Source: Nanohaloarchaea archaeon SW_7_43_1 (GTDB lineage Archaea; Nanohalarchaeota; Nanosalinia; Nanosalinales; Nanosalinaceae). From it: 64,000 nucleotides of DNA. A model generated the notes under the pieces. It had not been told where the DNA came from. It made no database searches and was given only the letters and a program-made list of their open reading frames with translations. The position numbers and the translations under genes were made by a program. The stretch is taken from NCBI GenBank assembly GCA_003009795.1, contig PXPE01000001.1, positions 880,739 to 944,738 on the forward strand, given 5' to 3'. Positions 41,747 to 43,492 of the stretch are shown piece by piece (positions within the stretch are counted from its first letter, which is position 1; every line of letters starts with the position of its first letter).

Positions 41747-43492
41747 ATTCCGGTTGATCCTGCCGGAGGCTACTGCTATCGGAGTCCGATTTAGCCATGC
41801 TAGTCCACCGATTCGTTCGGGGCGGATAGCTGAGTAACACGTGGCTAACCTGCCCTGTGGATGGAGATAACCTCGCTAACGTGAGGCTAATACCCAATAG
41901 CAGAGAACTACTGGAATGTGTTCTCTGTGAAATGTTCTGACGCCACAGGATGGGGCCGCGGCTGATTAGGTTGTTGGTGAGGTAACGGCTCACCAAGCCA
42001 GTAATCAGTAGCAGCCGTGAGAGCGGGAGCTGTCAGTCGTGTTCTGAGACAAGAACACGGACCCTACGGGGTGCAGCAGGCACGAAACCTTTACAATGCA
42101 CTAACGTGCGATAAGGGGACTCCGAGTGTAATCTTCCCACAAGGAAGGTTACTTTTCTGCACTGTAAGGAGGTGCCGGAACAAGGGGTGGGCAAGACTGC
42201 TGCCAGCCGCCGCGGTAATAGCAGCATCCCGAGTGGTAGTCATTATTATTGGGCTTAAAGTGTCCGTAGCCTGCCGTGTAAGTCTGCTGTGAAATCCAAG
42301 CGCTCAACGTTTGGACGTGCAGCGGATACTGCATGGCTAGGGACAGGATGGCGTCGAGGCTATTCCAAGAGTAGGAGTGAAATCCAAAAATTCTTGGAGG
42401 AGCACCTGTGGAGAAATCGCTCGACGAGTACTGATCCGACGGTGAGGGACGAAAGCTAGAGGAGCAAAGGGGATTAGATACCCTCGTAGTCCTAGCTGTA
42501 AACAATGTGCGTTTGATGTCGGCTAACCTCCGTGGTTAGCCGGTGCCGAAGAAAAATCGTTAAACGCACCGCCTGGGTAGTACGGTCGCAAGGCTGAAAC
42601 TTAAAGGAATTGACGGGGGAACACCACAACCGGTGGGGGCTGCGGTTTAATTAGATCCAACGCAGAGTACCCTACCAGAGCCGACAGCAGAATGACGGTC
42701 AGCTTGAAGAGCTTACCCGACGCGCTGAGAGGAGCTGCATGGCCGCCGTCAGCTCGTGCCGTGAGGTGTCCGGTTAAGTCCGGTAACGAGCGAGACCCGC
42801 ATCTCATGTTGCCATGGATCCCTTCGGGGATTCAGCACTCGTGAGAGACCGCTGGTGATAAACCAGAGGAAGGAGCGGGCCACGGTAGGTCAGTATGGCC
42901 CGAATGCTCTGGGATACACGCGGCCCACAATGGCTGGAACAAAGGGATGCCACCCCGAAAGGGGAAGCTAACCCCCCAAATCCAGTCTCAATACGGATTG
43001 AGGACTGCAACTCGTCCTCATAAAGTCGAAATCGGTAGTAGTCGCTGGTCATCATCTAGCGGCGAATAAGTCCCTGTTCCTTGTACACACCGCCTGTCAA
43101 GTCACCCGAGTCAGGTTCAGACGAGCTCTTGGTTTTCCAAGGTCAAGTCTGAGCTTGGCAAGGGGGGCTAAGTCATAATCCTTGAATTGTGACTCTGAAC
43201 CGAGAGGCTCAGAACAAAACCGGCTATATGCGGGGAACACCGCAAGCATATCGGAATACCGGAATACTTTCCATCGGCTTTTAAGCCCGGAAGGTACAAG
43301 GTAAAAATGTCCGATCGATGCGGTCGATCCGCAGGGAAGCTCACTTCGGATCTGGAAACAGAGGAGAATAGCCCCTCAGAGACTGCACGCCGGCCCCGAT
43401 TGAAGGGAGATGATACAGTCCGCGCCTTAGTGCGAACTAGGGATTCACGCGAACAAGGTAGCCGTTGGGGAACCATCGGCTGGATCACCTCC
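41747..43492 (+). rRNA. rrs: 16S ribosomal RNA gene, interrupted by a group I intron
   Basis: It starts ATTCCGGTTGATCCTGCCGG and ends GGATCACCTCC, which contains the anti-Shine-Dalgarno sequence. The gene spans 1,746 bases, but 275 of these (43177-43451) are an intron, leaving 1,471, a normal archaeal size. Diagnostic internal blocks are present: CAGCCGCCGCGGTAA (42190s), ATTAGATACCC, AAACTTAAAGGAATTGACGG and TTGTACACACCGCC. No tRNA-Ala and no 23S gene follow, so the rRNA genes are unlinked. It probably belongs to a nanohaloarchaeon-like DPANN lineage. Confidence 0.95.
43177..43451 (+). ncRNA. Group I self-splicing intron in 16S rRNA after position 1498
   Basis: The exon ends in T (43176) and the intron in G (43451), the group I rule. 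P1: exon AGTCAT (43171-43176) pairs with guide GTGACT (43189-43194), with the T-G wobble at the splice site. P10: CCTTG (43180-43184) pairs with 3' exon CAAGG (43454-43458). P2: TCTGA/TCAGA. P3: CCGGC (43220-43224)/GCCGG (43389-43393). P4: TGCGG (43229-43233)/CCGCA (43329-43333). P7: GACT (43381-43384)/AGTC (43417-43420), with the core motif GATGATACAGTCC. There is no room for a homing endonuclease gene. Confidence 0.93.

Follow-up and report, generated by a model that had tools for sequence, protein, structure and literature searches.

An endonuclease-free insert at position 1498 of a nanohaloarchaeal 16S rRNA gene, predicted to be a group I intron, has relatives at the same site in Archaea and Actinomycetota

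Nawrocki et al. (2018) described 39 archaeal group I introns, three of which, IB4.8 (from the Nanohaloarchaeota sequence AEIX01000219), IB4.19, and IB4.26, lie at SSU/1498, then a new site (PMC6125680). The Nanohaloarchaeota assembly with the SSU/1498 intron also has an intron at LSU/1931 (PMC6125680). In CPR bacteria, a 2024 study found insertions at 16S position 1498 that include group I introns and LAGLIDADG_2/_3 genes (PMC11270868). Given these reports in archaea (PMC6125680) and in the CPR (PMC11270868), the site, which we call S1498, is no oddity. Here we analyze the window, a 64,000-nucleotide stretch of a nanohaloarchaeal genome, in which an earlier note had read a group I intron at this position and proposed comparing the site with known archaeal ones. 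That comparison supports the reading as correct, but shows that both the kind of intron and its site were already known, Nanohaloarchaeota included (PMC6125680). New are the window intron itself, six complete members from Actinomycetota, and a core tree that joins archaeal and bacterial S1498 introns.

The window intron has its site, domain, and kind in common with IB4.8, IB4.19, and IB4.26. IB4.8 is 293 nt long, like the intron we found in genome G024, which is probably from the source organism of IB4.8 given this shared length, whereas the window intron is 275 nt long and differs in species and sequence. The pairing of SSU/1498 with LSU/1931 in the published assembly is also the combination in the window genome (G000): its 23S gene, which is unlinked from the 16S gene, holds a second group I intron (G000:C1:1841-2091, locus L006; RF00028, 61.7 bits), placed at about L1931 by exon and guide reading. 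The CPR insertions at 1498, presumably 16IS10 (PMC11270868), occupy the same site in bacterial hosts. Elsewhere in the window we noted a 150-nt tRNA match at 31533-31682 that is absent from the ARAGORN output and probably represents a tRNA gene carrying a long intron, and an open frame of 3,573 codons at 49786-60507 that probably encodes a giant surface protein of the type described for nanohaloarchaea.

The archaeal SSU model RF01959 matched the 16S gene from 41747 with 1435.6 bits, the match being broken at the insert. Exon 1 (41747..43176, + strand, as for all features below) runs to U1498 in E. coli numbering and ends in AAGTCAT; the 275-nt insert (43177..43451) falls exactly between U1498 and A1499, within helix 44 and beside A1492/A1493; and exon 2 (43452..43492) opens with AACAAGG and reads AACAAGGTAGCC...GGATCACCTCC. 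The junctions are thus ...CTAAGTCAT / AATCC...CACGCG / AACAAGGTAGCC, with a U as the last base of exon 1 and G43451 as the last base of the intron. In a congener (G027, locus L015) the site is empty, reading uninterrupted AAGTCATAACAAGG, and the window 16S without its insert is identical to that of L015 at 1457 of 1468 positions (99.3%) with no gaps. The empty site and the gap-free match after removal indicate that the insert is a precise intron and not a rearrangement, and that its gain or loss is recent, postdating the split between these two species. The earlier note had placed a 275-base insert after U1498, with an exon ending in U and an intron ending in G, and had predicted a 1,471-base spliced rRNA; the exon reading, the junction sequence, and the L015 empty site all agree, and removal in silico leaves 1,471 nt.

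The insert also scores and folds as a group I intron. The Rfam group I model RF00028, which the same note had suggested as a check, matched 43167-43442 with 58.5 bits (E 2e-14, short search), above its gathering score of 50 bits. P2, P3, P4, P5, P6, P7, P8, and P9 can all be drawn alongside P1, a helix of six contiguous pairs (43171..43194) between exon 43171-43176 (AGTCAT) and guide 43189-43194 (GTGACT) that includes a U.G pair at the splice site and may be extended by pairing AAT (43177-43179) with ATT (43186-43188). Composition shuffles gave such a six-pair P1 with U.G at the cut in 1.7% of cases, so P1 alone is not decisive, and the core and covariation decide. P2 (43195-43201 with 43206-43212) is a hairpin with one A.C mismatch and a GAGA loop. 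P3 joins CCGGC (43220-43224) to GCCGG (43389-43393), spanning 43220..43393; P4 joins TGCGG (43229-43233) to CCGCA (43329-43333); and P5, read from sequence, joins CCGCA (43240-43244) to TGCGG (43319-43323). P6 (GG 43335-43336 with CC 43373-43374) continues into P6a (GCT 43339-43341 with AGC 43370-43372), the two together spanning 43335..43374. The guanosine-binding helix P7 pairs GACTG (43381-43385) with CAGTC (43416-43420), P8 (43394..43407) is very short at about three pairs (CCC/GGG), and P9 (43425-43431 with 43436-43442) is a hairpin with an invariant GCGA loop. A candidate P10 would pair CCTTG (43180-43184) with CAAGG of the 3' exon (43454-43458), plus AA (43452-43453) with UU; it is interrupted by a 2-nt bulge in the window and reads as contiguous in G077, and we regard it as plausible but split.

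Two further archaeal genomes carry an intron at this site, G024 (293 nt) and G077 (754 nt, from another phylum), and more copies come from Actinomycetota, where six are complete (G394, which is JAUJNI010000002.1, and G404, G426, G447, G476, and G734) and one is cut off. A loose pattern scan of the whole genome collection returned mostly chance matches and one Actinomycetota intron, L095; this locus belongs to G394, an Actinomycetota MAG whose rRNA genes gave six group I matches, among them S1498 and one more SSU site. We aligned the window intron with the eight complete same-site introns, giving three archaeal and six Actinomycetota sequences, on a 49-pair structure that includes the P3/P7 pseudoknot. 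Pairing was found in 97.3% of 440 cells, compared with 32-45% in controls in which the structure was slid along the alignment. Double changes occur in 22 pairs; shuffles averaged 9.0, and 0 of 500 reached 22. Independent events are fewer than these counts suggest, because kinship lies outside the shuffle statistics and six of the nine introns come from one bacterial phylum.

The most telling covarying pair is P1 position 1497, which spans the exon-intron boundary: A1497 pairs with a guide U in the three archaea and G1497 with a guide C in the six bacteria, so the guide matches the host's own rRNA. Within the intron, P4 covaries from U-A to G-C and P7 from A-U to G-C, P2 shows double changes in 7/7 pairs, and P3, P4, P6, and P7 are paired in 100% or nearly 100% of cases. 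The terminal G is present in 9/9 introns, as is the six-pair P1 with its splice-site wobble. By every sequence and covariation test applied, the insert is a group I intron.

Archaeal rRNA introns are usually of the bulge-helix-bulge (BHB) type cut by the tRNA splicing endonuclease, and we weighed this reading against the group I core. If the junction is shifted by two bases, which the ambiguous AA permits, one can draw a 4-bp CCTT/AAGG helix that has 3-nt bulges. However, this helix coincides with P10 and lacks conservation among the other introns tested, and the flanking helices of a BHB are absent, with 2/5 and 1/5 pairs. We drew the BHB model at three junction registers and rejected it. With a complete group I core also speaking against it, a BHB intron is very improbable. 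We give equally little credence to the idea that the insert is an expansion segment kept in the rRNA, or that it is excised without joining to leave a fragmented 16S. Fragmentation of 16S rRNA is known in some prokaryotes, but an insert retained in helix 44 next to A1492/A1493 should be lethal, and both versions are opposed by the empty site of the congener and by a catalytic core conserved with covariation.

We built the core tree from 101 nt of intron core, leaving out exon and guide; it replaced a first tree, for which mixed introns had been aligned with a covariance model and which suffered from long-branch problems and scattered the sites. The core tree places all nine S1498 introns together (support 0.93), and the LSU intron of the window genome, likewise group I, falls outside it at 64% core identity to the window intron. 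Core identity of the window intron is 83% (G024) and 80% to the other two archaeal members and 75-77% to the bacterial S1498 introns. Because a few bacterial LSU introns reach almost the same identity (76-77%), the signal behind the core tree is limited, and its remaining loci, most of which were picked up by core motif, are a biased sample. The Actinomycetota introns have site, fold, and invariant core in common with the window intron and fall in the same core clade, but differ in their G1497 hosts, guide C, longer P8, and, in some, an intact or decayed endonuclease gene. We found no published report of them in a search that covered mostly literature outside subscription. An assembly error or a contaminating bacterial intron, for which the same-site introns of Actinomycetota might speak, is the least probable reading of all, since the genome is a single 956,550-base contig of 98.95% completeness, the guide fits archaeal A1497, and core identity is highest to the archaeal introns (0.83 and 0.80, against 0.75-0.77 for bacteria).

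Among 28 genomes of the phylum, 14 gave 16S matches, with an S1498 intron only in the window genome and G024, and in a set of 394 archaeal genomes G077 was the sole further carrier; all these counts are lower bounds, as the large searches used stricter filters and many genomes have no assembled 16S. A second, partial 16S in G024 lacks the intron (L028, L030), which together with a stated contamination of 7% makes mixed strains likely.

A domain search found no endonuclease domain in either ORF overlapping the insert, in keeping with the earlier note, which had held that the intron lacks an endonuclease gene. The position of P8 is occupied differently in relatives: in G077 it holds an open LAGLIDADG_3 homing endonuclease gene of 169 aa (PF14528, E 1.5e-14), in G734 another LAGLIDADG_3 gene (PF14528, E 2.1e-6), and in G476 only remnants of a decayed endonuclease gene are left in the intron. 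The simplest reading would be that a formerly mobile intron lost its gene, and with the gene in the P8 of relatives and none here, the window copy is probably stranded and vertically inherited. In the same note's wording "immobile or fixed," the term "fixed" is doubtful, because a congener 99.3% identical in spliced 16S has an empty site. LAGLIDADG_3 domains were also matched at 18 other places of the window genome, mostly in ORFs of 950-1,900 aa; these long-ORF matches resemble inteins, in which this small genome seems rich.

We conclude that the insert is almost certainly a group I intron with no ORF of its own, predicted to splice by the guanosine route and apparently by itself; kinship with the published SSU/1498 introns suggests that it probably belongs to subgroup IB4. 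After transcription, P1 would place exon U1498 opposite the guide G, and a guanosine bound in P7 would attack after U1498. Exon 1, still paired to the guide, would next use its free end to attack after G43451, while P10 assists in positioning the 3' exon. AAGUCAU would thereby be ligated to AACAAGG, and helix 44 of the decoding center would again be intact. The intron would descend from a mobile S1498 lineage in which gene-bearing members have a LAGLIDADG_3 homing endonuclease within P8, and the gene-less copy would now be inherited or lost by its host, or moved only with outside help.

The host side of P1 has itself changed. The helix 44 pair C1404-G1497 is U1404-A1497 in every nanohaloarchaeal 16S with its 3' end read, and in G077 (loci L009-L020, L022, L028, and L171; in the window, the 42553-42580 region and 43056-43176), whereas the other archaeal 16S genes among the loci listed keep C1404-G1497. 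The exchange is a compensatory change in the decoding center, and it also mismatches the 1392-1406 primer site. It is about an even call, in our judgment, that all archaeal and bacterial S1498 group I introns belong to a single lineage, which LAGLIDADG_3 endonucleases in P8 moved from domain to domain, with the guide re-adapted to archaeal lineages in which the near-universal C1404-G1497 became U-A, and with the window copy as an end point that lacks an endonuclease and became stranded recently.

The intron interrupts the binding site of primer 1492R, whose best match has 8 mismatches compared with 2 once the gene is spliced, so surveys of near-full-length 16S genes would overlook carriers. 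The window intron adds a complete-genome example and an empty-site sister to the small archaeal SSU/1498 set, and the same site and fold are now shown in Actinomycetota. Congeners with and without the intron offer a natural test of whether it was recently gained or lost.
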